Positions 6,356 to 64,000 of a stretch of DNA of 64,000 nucleotides are shown one piece after another. Numbering within the stretch: the stretch's first letter is position 1; the number at the start of each line of letters is the position of its first letter. Made by a program: the position numbers and the translations under genes. The notes beneath the pieces are model-generated. The model searched no databases. It had not been told where the DNA came from and saw nothing but the letters and a program-made list of their open reading frames with translations. Source of the stretch: a virus; the IMG/VR virus record IMGVR_UViG_3300010938_000950, positions 62,001 to 126,000 of that record, one strand, 5' to 3'.

Positions 6356-6657
6356 TGGAAACTGACATTCTAAAACACTTTATTGGCAAGAATGTAGAAG
6401 TCCTTGTTGGAGGTGTTTGGATTGAAGGTCACTTGCAACCAATTGCAAAAGGGGTAGTTACACTAGTTCCAACTGATGAAACTGCTCCTTTTTATGGGCC
6501 AACTGCTATGAAGGCCGATGTTATTCAGGCTATTAGGCAGGTTAAACGTTCAGGGCAGAGATTGTCAGAGCCAGTTCCAGAAATAAATCCACAACCAGTT
6601 GTTAGATCAAGTTTAGACCAAGTAACTCCTGGTCAACGTTTTAAGGGGAATCGATGA
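6355..6657 (+). CDS. Small Sm-like/SH3-like beta-barrel protein, unknown function
   Basis: A 100-residue protein coupled to the tubulin gene (TAATG overlap). The first ~60 residues, 'GKNVEVLVGGVWIEGHLQ' followed by 'KGVVTLVP', look like the short strongly bent strands of an Sm-type barrel. The remainder is a Pro/Gln-rich tail. A similar strand pattern is seen in the protein at 10071, so the two may be distant relatives. The function is unknown. Position suggests co-production with the tubulin, for example as a partner or adaptor, but nothing in the sequence proves contact. Confidence 0.6.
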   Translation: METDILKHFIGKNVEVLVGGVWIEGHLQPIAKGVVTLVPTDETAPFYGPTAMKADVIQAIRQVKRSGQRLSEPVPEINPQPVVRSSLDQVTPGQRFKGNR

Positions 6658-55894: not shown

Positions 55895-56410
55895 TTATTT
55901 CTTGATTTTCTCGTAGATAACAACCATTGCCTTTAGGTCTGGTTTTTCTGGGGCTAACATTAGTGTCTGTTTGGCAATAAATTCTAGCGGATTGATCCAT
56001 GGAAATCTGGCAGCTTCTTGACCATACGACACATCTATCCAATTAGGCACGATAGTCAAATGAATTTCATCCGCAAATTCCATGCCAGCTTCATAAATAC
56101 GTTCCCCTCCTACAATCCAAACGTCTTTGCCATTGTCACAGGTATCTAACGCTTCCGGCACTGAGGCAAATACTTCGATGCCTTCATGATTAAGAACACC
56201 AAGTCCGTTAGCTAGTCGGCTAATAACAATATTTCGACGGTTTGGTAATGGTCTGCTACCAATTGATTCAAAAGTCTTCCTCCCCATAATAATGGTAGAA
56301 TTTTTTGTTTTACTGGCGAATAGCTTCATGTCTTCCGGATAATGCCACGGTAGTTTGCCATCTAATCCAATGTAGCCATTCTGACTAACAGCAGCGATCA
56401 TTTTAATCAT
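55895..56410 (-). CDS. folA: Dihydrofolate reductase
   Basis: A 171-residue DHFR: 'IAAVSQNGYIGLDGKLPWHYPED' region (56329-56404) with the folate-binding Asp/Glu loop, 'TIIMGRKTFESIG' (NADPH-binding), 'RRNIVISR', and 'VWIVGGERIYE', the conserved GGxxxY turn. It regenerates tetrahydrofolate and pairs with thymidylate synthesis. The neighbour is ThyX, which makes dihydrofolate less directly than ThyA, so the pairing is slightly unusual. GAGG lies 7 nt before the ATG. 9 nt separate it from thyX. Confidence 0.92.
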   Translation of the reverse strand: MIKMIAAVSQNGYIGLDGKLPWHYPEDMKLFASKTKNSTIIMGRKTFESIGSRPLPNRRNIVISRLANGLGVLNHEGIEVFASVPEALDTCDNGKDVWIVGGERIYEAGMEFADEIHLTIVPNWIDVSYGQEAARFPWINPLEFIAKQTLMLAPEKPDLKAMVVIYEKIKK

Positions 56411-56419
56411 CTGATTACC

Positions 56420-57067
56420 TCATCCAAAAATCTTTTCTTTAGTCCACCCAAAAGCTTCTAAAGACATATTAAATGATCCTGTCTCATATGTTTGTTGTAG
56501 CATGGTCTTAGCTAAATTAGCCACTTCAAGTTGGGCGCCATCTTCATTGCGCAGACCCTGGAAATGCATAAAAGAGCGGAAATTAAACATAACGTCTGCT
56601 GTTAATTGGTGGCAGTATGGTAGATAGAAACGAGCGCTTTCCTTAGCTCGTTTTCTGCTGTATCCCTTAGCTACTAGTCTTTCTAGGGTATCATGGTATT
56701 TCTTGAAAGATTCTTTATAATGCTGGAGAAGCAGTACTTGTTCATCTTCTGGCCAATCAATTGGTACATATCCTTTTTCTTCTTGTAGTTTCTTATATCT
56801 TGCCGACTCTCCATTGACTGATACCCCAATTCTATGTTTTAGGATATGGATGTGTGTGGCAATATCAGTGGTTACTAAAAAGTGTAGAGAAGACTTCTCA
56901 AATGGAGTATGATGACCATTTTGAGCTAGCATAGTTAACAGCTTATCCATACGTCCACGTTTTTCCTCGGTTAGGTCACGGGAGGTTGAAGTCCAAGCGG
57001 AGAGCGCATGCGTCTCATCAGAGCCGTAAAAACCTACTAGCTCTACTTTATTATCATAGTCTTTCAT
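56420..57067 (-). CDS. thyX: Flavin-dependent thymidylate synthase
   Basis: A 215-residue ThyX that makes dTMP from dUMP with FAD and methylene-tetrahydrofolate. The ThyX motif is 'KHRIGVSVNGESARY' (77-91): the usual first Arg is Lys, and one extra residue lies between HR and Ser compared with RHRxxSxNxxSxRY. 'FLVTTDIATHIHILKH' and 'RFYLPYCHQLTADVMFNFRS' supply the other nucleotide and flavin contacts. With NrdJ, DHFR and the IMPDH/GMPR-family enzyme it gives the phage control over nucleotide pools. Confidence 0.93.
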   Translation of the reverse strand: MKDYDNKVELVGFYGSDETHALSAWTSTSRDLTEEKRGRMDKLLTMLAQNGHHTPFEKSSLHFLVTTDIATHIHILKHRIGVSVNGESARYKKLQEEKGYVPIDWPEDEQVLLLQHYKESFKKYHDTLERLVAKGYSRKRAKESARFYLPYCHQLTADVMFNFRSFMHFQGLRNEDGAQLEVANLAKTMLQQTYETGSFNMSLEAFGWTKEKIFG

Positions 57068-58365: not shown

Positions 58366-59409
58366 TCACTTGATAATAACGTCATGCGGATGAGACTCTT
58401 TCAGCCCCGCACTGGTTATTCTTATAAATGTCGGATTATCCTTAAGCTCCTCTAAGTTACGTGCGCCTTGATATGAGCATCCAGATTGTAATCCTTCAAC
58501 TAGTTTAGTCATTATATTTTGGAATGTTCCCTTATAAGGGACCAACGCCGCCACACCTTCGATATGATTGGTTTTGTGGGTAGAACTTCCAACATATTCT
58601 TTGTAGATTACTTTGTCTATTTCCACTCTTCTACCCGGCGCTTCTTCACAGCCTGCAAAAAGATTTCCAATCATTACCATATCAGCAAAGCAAAGAGCCT
58701 TGACAATGTCTCCTGCGCTTTTGATTCCGCCGTCAGATATAAAACGGAACTGACGTCTTTTCTCGTGGGGATAGTGTTTAGTCCTTTCTAGTTCATTTAG
58801 CTGACGTTGAACTTCGGCAACATCAGCCAAGGCTGTGAATTGTGGCACACCATTGCCTGTTTCAATTCTGGTAGTACACAAACTACCTGGCCCCACACCA
58901 ACTTTAACCACATCAGCTCCAGCTTGCCATAGTCGGCGAGCGCCTTCTCCGGTAGCTACATTTCCAGCAATAATAAAAATATCTGGGTATTTTTCTTTAA
59001 TCCAACTAGTCATCTCCATGCACATTTTTGAATCACCGTGTGCCACATCAATACAAACTATCCGGATGCCAGCGTCTCGAAAGCGAGCAACCATTTCTCT
59101 GTCAGAAGGTTTCACGCCTATGGAAACGGCAAAATGCTCATTACCATAGTTATCAAAAATCCTGTTTGCAATTTGCAGTTGCTCTTTCTCATCCATGAAT
59201 CGATGTAAAATAGCTAATCCGCCACTTTTGATAATTTTTACAGCCATCTCTTCGCCAATAACCGTTTTCATGTTGGCTGGAATAATTGGGTGTGCAAATT
59301 CTAAACAGCCCCATTTTACTGAAACATCCACATCTTTTGAGCGACTTTCTATATCAGAATATTGTGGAACCAGAAGCACATCATCAAACGTCAAACCCTC
59401 ACGAATCAT
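58366..59409 (-). CDS. IMP dehydrogenase/GMP reductase family enzyme without CBS domains
   Basis: A 347-residue TIM-barrel enzyme. '[18 protein letters not shown]' is the family N-terminus. 'ICIDVAHG', '[15 protein letters not shown]', the catalytic loop '[20 protein letters not shown]' with Cys178, 'ISDGGI', and the C-terminal '[10 protein letters not shown]...[15 protein letters not shown]' complete the barrel. The CBS pair of bacterial IMPDH is absent, and no Arg-Tyr flap is seen between 'GSS' and 'EGV', so it is nearer GMP reductase in layout. It would shift IMP/GMP balance during infection. GGAGGT precedes the ATG, with a promoter at 59465-59493. Confidence 0.88.
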
Positions 59410-59497: not shown

Positions 59498-59519
59498 AAG
59501 ATAATGATTTAATTATCTT
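59498..59519. promoter_or_regulatory. 8-bp inverted repeat in divergent intergenic region
   Basis: AAGATAAT (59498-59505) and ATTATCTT (59512-59519), perfect complements with a 6-nt spacer. It lies just upstream of the minus-strand promoter and before the plus-strand gene at 59567. It is more likely a protein-binding operator than a terminator, as there is no GC stem. Confidence 0.4.
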
Positions 59520-59566
59520 TGTCAAGGCTACAGCAAAGAAAATCATTAGTAAGACAGGGAGTTTAT

Positions 59567-60499
59567 ATGAGCCTAGATATTTTCAAATTAATTCAAGATT
59601 TGATTGGCGGCCTCTTTGGCTCTAAATCAAAAGAGAACGTATCTGTACCGATAGATAATTCTCCACCTACCACGAATCCACAAACTCAGGTAGTATCAGC
59701 CCCAGTCACATCCCCAATTTCAAATACAAGCCCTGTTACTACTTCTAGCCCTATTCCAAATCGTAATCCATATTCTGTTACTGGCTCTGGATTTATACAA
59801 GCAAACATGAATTTGGTTGGTGCAGCCAGAGAAGCAAACATTTTGAGAGAATTTCAGGAAGGTAATATTCCTGATTTTCTAAGAAACTTTGTTGATATTA
59901 AAGTGACAGATGGAATTAATACTATTATTTATAAGGTAATGCCTGATTACTTATCCATTGGTAGCGATGAAGATTACGTTAGAGTTCCAATGAATCCTCA
60001 CACGGCCCAATCCATTGCTGATCAGTATGACTGTACTTTAATCACCAGAAAAATGGTGAATGATATTTGGAAACGGTCTGTTAATAAACTATCACCAAAA
60101 CCCTGGGGCCCACCGTATAATGCTGACATGGAAAAAACCCATCGCATTGGCACCCATAGCAACACTATACAAAAGCAGTTAACATCTGCGAATCTTAACC
60201 CATTTTCATTAACATCAGGACACAAAAAAGATGTTGTATTAACCAATAGATTAGCGCCCAACAATCCTAATAGAAGAGTAGCTATATATGGATGGATACA
60301 GCTTAACGGTAAACCAATTCAAGATTTAAATCCGTCAAGTCATGATGATAAATATGCAGACTACAGTCATGGTATTAGACTAGCCGATAATATTGCAGTA
60401 GTAAACGGGCAACCAATGAGAATGAAAGATGTGTTTAAACATCCGACTTATTCAAAATTGGTTAGCGATGAAGGCCCTCTTAACTTTTTGAGCTATTAA
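59567..60499 (+). CDS. Uncharacterised secreted/envelope-type protein with N-terminal amphipathic helix (paralogue 1)
   Basis: A 310-residue protein from the ATG at 59567 (AGGGAG seven bases upstream); the frame opens with a TTG at 59519. Residues 4-20 ('DIFKLIQDLIGGLFGSK') form an amphipathic helix like those of the GH25 and M23 enzymes, followed by a Pro/Thr/Ser linker (~25-75). The body has 'YKVMPDYLSIGSDEDYVRVP', 'AQSIADQYDC' and 'THRIGTHSNTI', a pattern I recall from uncharacterised exported bacterial proteins. It matches the downstream protein over most of its length. Envelope or cell-wall action is likely but unproven. Confidence 0.6.
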   Translation: MSLDIFKLIQDLIGGLFGSKSKENVSVPIDNSPPTTNPQTQVVSAPVTSPISNTSPVTTSSPIPNRNPYSVTGSGFIQANMNLVGAAREANILREFQEGNIPDFLRNFVDIKVTDGINTIIYKVMPDYLSIGSDEDYVRVPMNPHTAQSIADQYDCTLITRKMVNDIWKRSVNKLSPKPWGPPYNADMEKTHRIGTHSNTIQKQLTSANLNPFSLTSGHKKDVVLTNRLAPNNPNRRVAIYGWIQLNGKPIQDLNPSSHDDKYADYSHGIRLADNIAVVNGQPMRMKDVFKHPTYSKLVSDEGPLNFLSY

Positions 60500-60501
60500 C
60501 A

Positions 60502-61893
60502 ATGAGTTTTGAACAGGATTTTGCAAAAACACCAGCCGGCCCACAAAGAGAGAGATTGGTTTATCAGGCAGTAGTCAGCCAAGGTAAACCTACTGATCTA
60601 TGGCCGGTTACTGTTAATGGTCCTCAAGGAACTAAAATCACTTTTTACATAACTAGAGATTTTCTTAAAGTAGGTAATCAATATCTACCAATGACTGCCA
60701 CTACTGCGCAGATGATAGCTAATAAATTTGGTATGTACTTACCCACTAATACTATTGCAGACCACGTATGGGCAGCGGCCAAGGCGGCCGGATCAACTGT
60801 CAATGTTGATCCACTAAGTGGCACAGGATACCAAGGTGCGGATGGCAAATGGTATTCGGGAGCAGATGTAGCAAATAAACGAATTGGTACCACAGACGCA
60901 GCAGTAGAATTTAGTAAAAGAGTTAATCAGCAGGTGTCCCAGAACCCTAACTCTCAAAAGGGGTTGGTGGATATCGGCAGTGGAGGTAAGTGGTTGACAG
61001 TGCCACCAGCCAGCGGCAGCTTGGGCTTACATGGGATTAGGCAGCCAGGTGGTATGTTGCAAAGCGGCTATGGTACCAAGCATCCAAACTATGAAGATCA
61101 TGTAGAGTACGGAACTTATGTTCGTTTAGTTGATAATAAAGTAACGGTACAACATGCTGATGGTCGCAAAGAGAGTATGACTATGGATCAATTCATAAAA
61201 AGTCCATACCGTTCCGCTCTTTTTATGGAAGGTCAAGACATTCGTGATGGCAGTATTGCTCAGTACAATATTAGAAGAGATAGGGCTGATCTTGCTAGCT
61301 TGGATCGTGGGACACAACCATCTCGGCCCTCTGGACCAAATTTAGACCAAGTGAACCAATTTTTAGACCAGGCATTAACTCAGGTAGCCAGTCGTATGAA
61401 AATTTATGGCAGGATCATTAAGCGGGCAAAAGGTGATATTAAAATTTTACCTAGTATAGGAAAAGATCCAGTTATCAAAGATTTGAGTGCCAAAAGTATT
61501 CCTGGTTACCCGCCTACCGGATATAGGGCTTTGAAAGCTGGCGAGAATAATACAGATGTTGGTATTGCTGCTAATAAAATTCTTCATACCTCTTCTTTAG
61601 GAGATCAGACACCATTCACTATCGATGGTAAAGAATATATGGGAAGAACCGAGCCCCATTTCCACCCATATCCGCCGCCTGGCACAAAACCATCTGAATA
61701 CGGTAAATATCCTAAGCCATGGGGCTGGCATAAAGGCGTAACAGTTTTCAAGAAAGCGGAAAGTGTTCCTAAAGTGTCAGGACCATCGAACACCCAATCT
61801 AGGATGGCATTATTACAAAAAATACAAGATACCCCTGTGGACGGAGATAGTACTATCGTGAATCTTCTTTCAGAAATTGAGAGAGATGTTTAA
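60502..61893 (+). CDS. Uncharacterised secreted/envelope-type protein (paralogue 2)
   Basis: A 463-residue tandem relative of 59567. 'TFYITRDFLKVGNQYLPMTA', 'AQMIANKFGMYLPT' and 'YGTYVRLVDNKVTVQHADG' correspond in order to segments of its neighbour. It lacks the amphipathic helix and instead has a C-terminal ~150-residue extension rich in Pro/Gly/His ('EPHFHPYPPPGTKPSEYGKY'). It may bind metal through the His cluster. The start lies 3 nt after the upstream stop. The 3' end overlaps the convergent infA stop by 4 nt. Confidence 0.6.
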   Translation: MSFEQDFAKTPAGPQRERLVYQAVVSQGKPTDLWPVTVNGPQGTKITFYITRDFLKVGNQYLPMTATTAQMIANKFGMYLPTNTIADHVWAAAKAAGSTVNVDPLSGTGYQGADGKWYSGADVANKRIGTTDAAVEFSKRVNQQVSQNPNSQKGLVDIGSGGKWLTVPPASGSLGLHGIRQPGGMLQSGYGTKHPNYEDHVEYGTYVRLVDNKVTVQHADGRKESMTMDQFIKSPYRSALFMEGQDIRDGSIAQYNIRRDRADLASLDRGTQPSRPSGPNLDQVNQFLDQALTQVASRMKIYGRIIKRAKGDIKILPSIGKDPVIKDLSAKSIPGYPPTGYRALKAGENNTDVGIAANKILHTSSLGDQTPFTIDGKEYMGRTEPHFHPYPPPGTKPSEYGKYPKPWGWHKGVTVFKKAESVPKVSGPSNTQSRMALLQKIQDTPVDGDSTIVNLLSEIERDV

Positions 61894-62111
61894 GCTCCCT
61901 TAATGCGATATACGATACGTCCCCTACTAGGATCATACTCCGAAACTTCAATTTTTACTCTGTCTCCTAACAGAATACGAACTGAATTTGTTCTGATTTT
62001 TCCACTTAAGGTACAGAGAACAGTGTAGTTATCACTTACCTGAACTTTAAACTGTCCCTTGTTAGCATCGATAACTTCGCCTTCAAACTCTAATCTATCA
62101 CGATCACTCAA
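61890..62111 (-). CDS. infA: Translation initiation factor IF-1
   Basis: A 73-residue protein, the length of bacterial IF-1 (71-72). It aligns along the whole OB fold: 'FEGEVIDANKGQFKVQVSDN', 'CTLSGKIRTNSVRILLGDRV' and 'VEVSEYDPSRGRIVYRIK'-type end, corresponding to the E. coli strands with 'SGKMRKNYIRILTGDKV' and 'YDLSKGRIVFR'. The ribosome-contacting basic residues Lys/Arg in the SGK-R and GRIVYR segments are kept. A phage IF-1 could favour phage mRNA start sites or keep translation running when the host shuts down. It is encoded on the minus strand with an exonuclease. Confidence 0.9.
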   Translation of the reverse strand: MSDRDRLEFEGEVIDANKGQFKVQVSDNYTVLCTLSGKIRTNSVRILLGDRVKIEVSEYDPSRGRIVYRIKGA

Positions 62112-62123
62112 TGTAGTATCCCT

Positions 62124-62774
62124 TTATTGTTTTAGTATTGTTGATATCATTTCGGATTGTTTGTAAATATCCGAAATGAATGCGTTACTCGCCGGCAAAT
62201 AAGATAGCCATGCCGAGCCCGAAATGCAAGGAATAGCCAAATTTTCTTTCTTTCCTAATTGCTGATAATATTTAACGTCTAAATGATTAGCTATGGTTTT
62301 CAAACTAGTCAAACCAATAATCAGTGGCGAAACCTGTTGCCACTCGTCATGCCAATACAAATATGAACGCAGATGTTCATCGATACCTAGAAAATTAATA
62401 AGACAACAATCCTGATAGATATCTTCATCCTTGCCGTGGACCAAGTGCACCAACTTACTCATCTTCACGATTTTGTCAATACCAAGTCCGTAATATAAAT
62501 CGGTACTAACAATTCTTTTTTTATCAAGGCGCAGGTCATTCAGTACTATTTCGAGGCGCTTGTACTTGTTTACCACTAGCGAATTTCCAAACTCGTCAAA
62601 CCACCATTTGTATAGAACTACTTTTTCAGTTCTTTCTTGGAAAATGTAATCGTATGGTTTAAGACGGCATGCTTTAATGATAAATTCTAGCTCTGGAATT
62701 TCTGTAAATCCAGTGACTAGTTTAATATGTTTATCTAATTTGGCGTGGAGCCATTCAATACTTGGGCTTCTCAT
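62124..62774 (-). CDS. Hypothetical protein
   Basis: A 216-residue protein I do not recognise. It is mixed helix/strand, rich in Tyr, Trp, Lys and Leu ('SYLYWHDEWQQVSPLIIGL'), with no visible catalytic motif. It overlaps the upstream exonuclease gene by 4 nt (ATGA). Function unknown. Confidence 0.55.
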   Translation of the reverse strand: MRSPSIEWLHAKLDKHIKLVTGFTEIPELEFIIKACRLKPYDYIFQERTEKVVLYKWWFDEFGNSLVVNKYKRLEIVLNDLRLDKKRIVSTDLYYGLGIDKIVKMSKLVHLVHGKDEDIYQDCCLINFLGIDEHLRSYLYWHDEWQQVSPLIIGLTSLKTIANHLDVKYYQQLGKKENLAIPCISGSAWLSYLPASNAFISDIYKQSEMISTILKQ

Positions 62775-63442
62775 TCTTGATCTAGTAATAGAGTTGGATC
62801 AAGCCCTTCATCTGCATCTGGTGTCACAACAGTGTGTACGTGAGTTTTAATAAACGGTAGGTAGTCTATTTTTCTTTCATCCACCAAATTGCGATAAAGC
62901 AAATAAGTATTTCTGCTATCTACTTTAGCATTGTGAGCTTCTGAAATTTTCTTAATGCCCACCATATCACAGCAAGCATGCAATTGTGTGCTCACTCGCC
63001 CGGTTGCCGTTTTAACAATGTTAAGTTGGGACGTATCATTTTCGTCTATAAATTTCTTAGTAAGTGAAATGGTGTCTAACCACAAATGTGCAGGAAATTC
63101 TTTACCGGAAGCCTCCCACATGGCATGTAAAAATTTTCTATCAAATGGAGCATTATGAGCAATGATACAGCGGTGTGCTGGTGTTAGACCATCTTCCGCA
63201 AAGAATTTTTCGCATTCAGCAATTACTGCGTCACGATCATAGCCTCGCTCTAGATCAGCCATTGTTTTCTTTGTAATAGCTAAGGCATCAAAATTTGCAC
63301 GTTCAGGATAAACACATTTAATTTGGCGCCAGAGTTGTACTCGGTCAGTAACTCGTATAATACCAATTTCAGTTATCTCGTGGTAACCGCTTTTTAAACC
63401 AGTTGTTTCAGTGTCAATTACGTAATATTGTAGTCCAGACAT
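62771..63442 (-). CDS. DnaQ-like 3'-5' exonuclease (DEDDh), copy 2
   Basis: A 223-residue exonuclease: ExoI 'VIDTETTGLKSG', ExoII 'IIAHNAPFDRKFLH', ExoIII 'AHNAKVDSRNTYLL' with the DEDDh residues. It resembles the copy at 25202 in layout ('GHNIAFD' versus 'AHNAPFD'), with the C-terminal ~40 residues differing. Possible roles are proofreading or trimming of RNA or DNA ends. Coupled to the unknown gene at 62124. Confidence 0.88.
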   Translation of the reverse strand: MSGLQYYVIDTETTGLKSGYHEITEIGIIRVTDRVQLWRQIKCVYPERANFDALAITKKTMADLERGYDRDAVIAECEKFFAEDGLTPAHRCIIAHNAPFDRKFLHAMWEASGKEFPAHLWLDTISLTKKFIDENDTSQLNIVKTATGRVSTQLHACCDMVGIKKISEAHNAKVDSRNTYLLYRNLVDERKIDYLPFIKTHVHTVVTPDADEGLDPTLLLDQE

Positions 63443-63452
63443 TCTTCCTCAC

Positions 63453-63755
63453 TTACCAAAATGCTTTGTTTCTCATGTAACATTCAAATTCTTGTTGAGT
63501 CGTTACGAATAATTTTTTACCATCCAACCACCACTCCATCGTTCCATCTCTTTTAATGGCGGCAGGCCCATCTTCATTATGAATTTTGTGTCTGCTGAAG
63601 AAAATACCAGTTGGCCGCTCATAATCTTTAACATAGATAGTGACATAATCTTCCCAATTGTGAGGGAACAGCAAATTCTCCACAAGAGCCCTAAATATAC
63701 TCCCAGGTCTCATATCTGTACTGTTGTTAAAATCACAAATATCAATACGTTTCAT
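63453..63755 (-). CDS. Hypothetical protein with 'NEDGPA' repeat-type domain
   Basis: A 100-residue protein. 'HNEDGPAAIKRDGTMEWWLD' is a short repeat type common in phage proteins (H-x-E-D-G-P-A-x4-D-G-x3-W). The rest ('SIFRALVENLLFPHNWEDYV') is helical. Function unknown. The ATG overlaps the stop of the SET-domain gene (ATGA). Confidence 0.6.
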   Translation of the reverse strand: MKRIDICDFNNSTDMRPGSIFRALVENLLFPHNWEDYVTIYVKDYERPTGIFFSRHKIHNEDGPAAIKRDGTMEWWLDGKKLFVTTQQEFECYMRNKAFW

Positions 63756-64000
63756 CTCTTATGAATTAAAGTTGGGTGTGAAATATAAAGTGGTATTATA
63801 TTTTTCTTCTTATATGATTCTTGTAACTCGGGACTTAAATATTGAAAACCGCTAATTATTTTACGACATTTGAACGAGCCACACTTACATTCCATCTTCC
63901 AGGTTTCGTGCGTGTCAGTGGATGTAGTTGAATAATCAAAAGTTAGTTCGGCCCCAGCAGGAATTACATATAAGGAATATAGAATGGCTCTATTGCCTAC
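63752..64000 (-). CDS. SET-domain protein, probable protein-lysine methyltransferase, C-terminal part (5' end outside window)
   Basis: The reverse strand is open from the right edge to TGA at 63754-63752, giving the last 82 residues of a protein whose start lies beyond the window. They carry the SET C-terminal signature: 'AILYSLYVIPAGAELTFDYS' (family: A...I..GeEL(T/F)-DY), then a post-SET cysteine cluster 'CKCGSFKCRKIISGF' (CxCGs..C). The Tyr of 'FDY' is the catalytic tyrosine of SET methyltransferases, and the Cys residues bind zinc together with one from the SET fold. It is coupled to the downstream gene. The substrate (histone-like, ribosomal or phage protein) cannot be told. Confidence 0.78.
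   Translation of the reverse strand, partial: VGNRAILYSLYVIPAGAELTFDYSTTSTDTHETWKMECKCGSFKCRKIISGFQYLSPELQESYKKKNIIPLYISHPTLIHKR

Follow-up and report, generated by a model that had tools for sequence, protein, structure and literature searches.

A putative SET-domain methyltransferase in a conserved nucleotide-metabolism operon of an uncultured huge-phage clade

The SET gene and its operon

The window analysed here is a stretch of 64,000 nucleotides, C1:62001-126000 of a 209,766-base IMG/VR record (IMGVR_UViG_3300010938_000950, contig C1). At its right edge a minus-strand frame (63752-64000), open at the window edge, encodes 82 amino acids, VGNRAILYSLYVIPAGAELTFDYSTTSTDTHETWKMECKCGSFKCRKIISGFQYL..., with the motifs GAELTFDYS and CKCGSFKCRKIISGF. 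An earlier note on this DNA had recognised in this fragment the C-terminal part of a SET domain with a post-SET cluster, encoded by a tailed phage. Rightward extension recovers the full gene on the minus strand, from C1:126246 to 125752. The intact protein comprises 164 amino acids, the 82 edge residues being its C-terminal half, and the frame is unbroken outside the window. The upstream half contains the SET-N glycines (GxG, in GGKGTF) and the NHxC motif (NHSCDPNC); GAELTFDYS and CKCGSFKC follow in the C-terminal half. Thus, with SET-N and NHxC present and the frame uninterrupted, the SET observation is confirmed.

This is further supported by profile searches. Across the 209,766-base record there is a single match to Pfam PF00856, which spans the window edge (E 1.6e-15, 55 bits, cut-off 22.4). 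The 164-residue protein matches the Pfam SET model over its full length (model positions 1-105) with 54.1 bits (cut-off 22.4) and E 2e-14. Searches of PHROGs and NCBIfam with the phage protein at E 0.001 returned no matching family. The features of the locus are as follows, in window coordinates.

55895-56410, minus strand: dihydrofolate reductase (DHFR; PF00186, E 1.7e-40)
56420-57067, minus strand: thymidylate synthase ThyX (PF02511, E 3e-32)
58366-59409, minus strand: IMP dehydrogenase / GMP reductase (IMPDH; PF00478, E 2.7e-93)
61890-62111, minus strand: translation initiation factor IF-1 (PF01176, E 5.5e-18), kept in phages with and without SET
62124-62774, minus strand: c6, a conserved protein of 216 amino acids and operon marker, no Pfam or PHROG match (alignment A4)
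62771-63442, minus strand: DEDDh 3'-5' exonuclease (DnaQ-like), conserved operon member (PF00929, E 5e-15)
63453-63755, minus strand: ORF of 100 amino acids with no assigned function (c18), coupled to SET, found in some relatives only (neighbourhood comparison)
63752-64000, minus strand: C-terminal half of the predicted SET-domain methyltransferase gene, an uninterrupted ORF with a Pfam SET match; full gene to 64246 (C1:125752-126246, 164 amino acids)
63866-63889, minus strand: post-SET cluster CKCGSFKC (Cys120, Cys122, Cys127), expected to form a zinc site with Cys74 of NHSC; all four cysteines invariant in 19 homologues, zinc expected from the family
63929-63940, minus strand: FDYS motif, residues 103-106, with the catalytic-type Tyr105 (from sequence and conservation in 19 homologues)

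The operon was delineated by neighbourhood comparison and by anchoring on the neighbouring genes c6 and c9, with functions taken from Pfam and PHROGs. Its order is dUTPase, HD dNMP phosphatase, c9, SET, zero to three small ORFs, DEDDh exonuclease, c6 and IF-1, then IMPDH, ThyX or ThyA, and DHFR. In C1 the SET start lies one base past the c9 stop and the SET stop overlaps the next ATG (ATGA), which suggests translational coupling. The c6 protein has 36 invariant columns in nine phages and always lies between the exonuclease and IF-1. SET occupies the identical slot on 22 further contigs of up to 481 kb, some of which are near-copies of each other; one contig (L094) ends before the slot. In six sister-clade contigs, whose c9 and c6 proteins are more distant, the operon is retained without SET. 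IF-1, described previously as being next to the SET gene, does belong to the same operon but lies four genes away, and it is equally kept in the SET-less sister phages, so that there is no sign of IF-1 itself depending on SET.

A convergent gene pair is often found between IF-1 and IMPDH. In the window this is a related protein pair with no assigned function (c0), at 59519-60499 and 60502-61893 on the plus strand, which is kept in several relatives. Right of the window, about 9 kb from the phage IF-1, lies a peptide release factor gene at C1:132950-134044 on the plus strand (L008:12950-14044; PCRF E 8e-43, RF-1 E 4e-38), with a homologue in one relative locus (L047).

The contig belongs to a phage. 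C1 carries a tail sheath gene, a DnaB-like helicase and a ribonucleotide reductase, and the terminase large subunit (TerL) is encoded in five SET-containing relatives, including the closest one (480,838 bases). The closest terminases of cultured phages are about 27% identical. The SET-containing phages are an uncultured lineage of tailed phages of 200-480 kb.

Conserved residues, predicted fold and structural relatives

A single-sequence scan of viral contigs found no relative of the SET protein; the profile scan alone succeeded. Guided by the profile, the IMG/VR scan recovered 11 loci, on contigs of up to 481 kb, that are 53-66% identical to the query along almost all of its length, and besides these 29 distant SET loci. 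Among ten aligned members of the phage family identity is 44-71%, with 33 invariant columns. In 19 distinct huge-phage sequences G17, H72, C74, P76, N77, D104, Y105, S106, C120, C122 and C127 are invariant, F103 is kept in 17, and N71 of NHS in 16, the other three having G, R and R. This conservation places the SET match far beyond chance. The median pN of 0.32 against a median pS of 0.73 is consistent with purifying selection, pS being near-saturated, such that a precise dN/dS is unobtainable. Post-SET zinc sites usually consist of the Cys of NHSC and three post-SET cysteines, and Cys74 with Cys120, Cys122 and Cys127 is expected to form such a site in the phage protein.

Compared with the Protein Data Bank, the single phage sequence matches MLL1 and ASH1L at about 5e-12, and a profile of ten phage homologues matches ASH1L (3e-17), MLL4/KMT2D (4e-17) and MLL1/KMT2A (1e-16), with the alignment running from SET-N through post-SET. 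While a first AlphaFold2 model from 10 alignment rows was poor (pLDDT 64.7), the model from a 31-row alignment, which was used instead, has a pLDDT of 92.6 and a pTM of 0.87. Foldseek with the predicted structure gives MLL1 as the best match (2.7e-11), ASH1L with a TMq of 0.68, and a probability of 1.00 to MLL and ASH1L. The model thus predicts with high confidence that the 164-residue protein adopts a SET fold (beta-clip with pseudoknot) like the SET domains of MLL and ASH1L.

MLL/KMT2 and ASH1L are the best solved relatives by profile and by fold and have NHSC and the post-SET zinc cysteines in common with the phage protein. They differ in being eukaryotic, multidomain proteins with histone H3 targets, and their longer SET-I insertion and extra domains are not found in the phage protein, in which the SET-I region is very short in the alignment with ASH1L. 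The vSET protein of PBCV-1, at 119 amino acids, is a likewise compact, virus-encoded SET enzyme, and matches the phage fold with a TMt of 0.79, a value from the weaker first model. In this algal virus vSET trimethylates host histone H3K27 (PMC7019647).

Distribution and origin of the gene

SET enzymes, most familiar as modifiers of histones, had been introduced in the earlier note as best known from eukaryotes with a few bacterial and giant-virus cases, a view that is out of date. Many bacteria have small SET-postSET proteins (PMC3980110), algal and giant viruses are known to encode SET proteins (PMC7019647), and tailed-phage SETs have already been annotated sporadically, so that the enzyme class as such is known. 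The small bacterial SET protein-lysine N-methyltransferases, e.g. the plasmid copy of Indioceanicola profundi, resemble the phage protein in size (roughly 150-200 amino acids), in combining SET and post-SET with no pre-SET, and in their motifs; the C-terminal extension F..LP.E.Q..Y is likewise present in the Indioceanicola copy, among others. They differ in being about 30-34% identical, in lying outside the phage clade and in not being known from a nucleotide operon.

The tailed-phage cases are less alike. The Menderavirus protein (Stenotrophomonas phages Ps15 and Moby) matches PF00856 with 30 bits, but it has 101 amino acids, has lost the His and Cys of NHSC (NSSDKPN), has an altered FDY and has no post-SET. 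Judged by these motifs it is probably not the same kind of enzyme, and a search with the Menderavirus protein (P0005) at E 0.01 returned Menderavirus matches only, with no kinship to the huge-phage SET. In Ps15 the SET annotation is ORF62 (PMC9025141), at L079:2551-2856 on the minus strand; given the missing His, Cys and post-SET, the designation as a SET domain protein may overstate its function. SET proteins of uncultured Caudovirales (BFVD, e.g. A0A6J5L8Y2) are annotated as tailed-phage SETs and match in fold (TMq 0.55), but at 13-21% identity they do not belong to the huge-phage family and have no known tie to its operon. A tblastn search of 50,697 phage records in INPHARED found no relative of the phage SET. 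A weak tblastn match in Kabachok (E 0.02) was rejected, as it lies in a 723-residue protein without a SET domain.

A single change, on a branch supported at 100/99, is enough to explain the presence of SET in a tree of six concatenated operon proteins. A second tree, built from 79 SET proteins, separates the 19 huge-phage sequences from the others by a branch with support 94/63 (96% of bootstraps) and places them amid bacterial SET-postSET proteins. The bacterial proteins beside the phage clade are about 30% identical; the best bacterial match, from Indioceanicola profundi, is 34% identical and has the C-terminal extension in common with the phage protein. Either a single acquisition or a single loss would fit this pattern, with the gene retained thereafter in all descendants sampled. 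A gain from bacteria is the natural reading, and a single loss in the sister clade is also allowed by the rooting. In searches of Myxococcota and Chloroflexota genomes relatives score just 60-78 bits, compared to 216-292 within the phage clade, and no donor was found. Two separate SET lineages on large viral contigs, one comprising L063, L065, L066 and L131 (TerL present on a 518 kb contig) and another comprising L056, L060, L061, L064 and L070 (TerL present on a 455 kb contig), indicate that SET genes entered large phages more than once.

In open-licence literature on SET domains with jumbo or huge phages we found no study of such an enzyme. While earlier tailed-phage SETs are isolated annotations, the gene is here a fixed core gene in a defined operon of an uncultured huge-phage clade. 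What is new is this deep clade with SET as a fixed operon gene, together with a natural SET-free control clade. The control clade, the 164-residue protein and the small number of neighbours make the role of non-histone SET enzymes in prokaryotes and viruses directly testable.

Proposed activity and candidate acceptors

From the intact gene, the full SET signature, the predicted fold, the invariant catalytic and zinc residues, the fixed operon slot and the single state change on the tree we infer catalysis and lysine specificity. With a probability of roughly 0.78, the product would be a catalytically active, SAM-dependent methyltransferase of class V (the SET-domain class), capped by a zinc-binding post-SET region and most probably directed at protein lysine, whose gene was gained once and kept by all sampled descendants. 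A single gain most likely took place in the ancestor of a clade of tailed phages of 200-480 kb, with the source among the small SET-postSET proteins of bacteria. The gene lies between c9 and the DEDDh exonuclease, within an operon for dNTP supply, exonuclease and IF-1. The enzyme would most likely transfer a methyl group from SAM to the side-chain amine of a protein lysine, the acceptor presumably being some protein of phage or host other than a histone. Its place in the operon implies that SET is expressed together with the nucleotide-metabolism genes, and the enzyme thus probably acts during metabolic takeover and DNA replication. Phe103 presumably occupies the Phe/Tyr switch position that sets the degree of methylation. 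A Phe at this switch would permit di- or tri-methylation, and we infer that the phage enzyme would give these products via Phe103. Although the SET-containing phages probably methylate some protein during infection, the fact that the operon can work without SET in the sister clade counts against the proposed role, as does the replacement of Asn71 of NHS in three of 19 members.

As to the acceptor, it is plausible, if somewhat short of an even chance, that the enzyme redirects the host by methylating one of its ribosomal, nucleoid or transcription proteins, in the way that vSET acts on histone H3; the earlier note had raised this for translation and nucleoid proteins. As a precedent, the compact viral enzyme vSET silences genes of its host (PMC7019647), and the presence of IF-1 in the operon and of a release-factor-like gene nearby suggests interference with translation. 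Bacteria, however, have no histone H3, which makes an H3 target of the vSET type impossible for the phage enzyme, and nothing in our analysis ties SET to a particular host protein. The presumed DNA-packing product at 6654, put forward in the earlier note as a substrate, was rejected since it is not conserved: it is absent from 10 of the 11 relatives and sister-clade genomes searched, with a partial match in one.

We consider it a tentative and rather doubtful possibility that this clade-defining lysine methyltransferase acts on the phage's own dNTP/replication module, e.g. c9 or the exonuclease, or on the matching host enzyme. A histone-methyltransferase-type enzyme would then control nucleotide supply post-translationally in a bacterial virus. 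The narrower version, methylation of a product of the SET operon itself, is unlikely; the simplest candidate would be the neighbouring c9, with its short basic segment and conserved lysines, the others being the exonuclease and IF-1. In the sampled SET-containing contigs c9 lies upstream of SET, adjoining or nearly so, and is its steadiest neighbour. Lys56 of c9 is found in 18 of 18 proteins from SET-containing phages compared to three of five from SET-less ones, and Lys88 in 89% compared to 0%. Since the two groups are two clades, kinship explains this suggestive contrast equally well, and other proteins have several lysine columns with a similar contrast. Moreover, c9, exonuclease and IF-1 are all retained in the SET-less phages.

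The SET fold alone is no proof of protein-lysine methylation, as the family includes the bacterial BurB, which turns free methionine into S-methylmethionine (PMC12542666). An enzyme of this type, acting on methionine or another metabolite and serving phage metabolism rather than protein marking, would suit a metabolic operon and the very short SET-I region. The phage profile picks up BurB at E 4.7e-11, in an alignment that continues past the post-SET region. However, BurB aligns only from position 50, leaving SET-N unaligned, whereas the alignments of histone-lysine methyltransferases cover SET-N to post-SET and their scores are 15-20 bits higher. The neighbours of SET are nucleotide enzymes rather than methionine enzymes, and we know of no methylated nucleotide that needs a SET enzyme. 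We therefore regard a small-molecule acceptor as improbable, compared to the preferred protein lysine.

It is very improbable that the gene is a bacterial one that reached the viral contig through an error of assembly or binning, or that it is a passenger without catalytic activity: the IMG/VR contigs are metagenomic and some distant SET matches on small contigs may be bacterial, but this is contradicted by the synteny of 22 other contigs with SET in the same slot and viral flanks, by the invariant catalytic residues, and by the tail sheath in C1 and TerL in its relatives.

Right of the window, C1:129838-142303 contains about 22 small ORFs, each starting with a CxxC zinc-ribbon-like motif. The few compared with Pfam gave no clear family. 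Some show weak mutual similarity, and the run looks like a diverged paralogue array.
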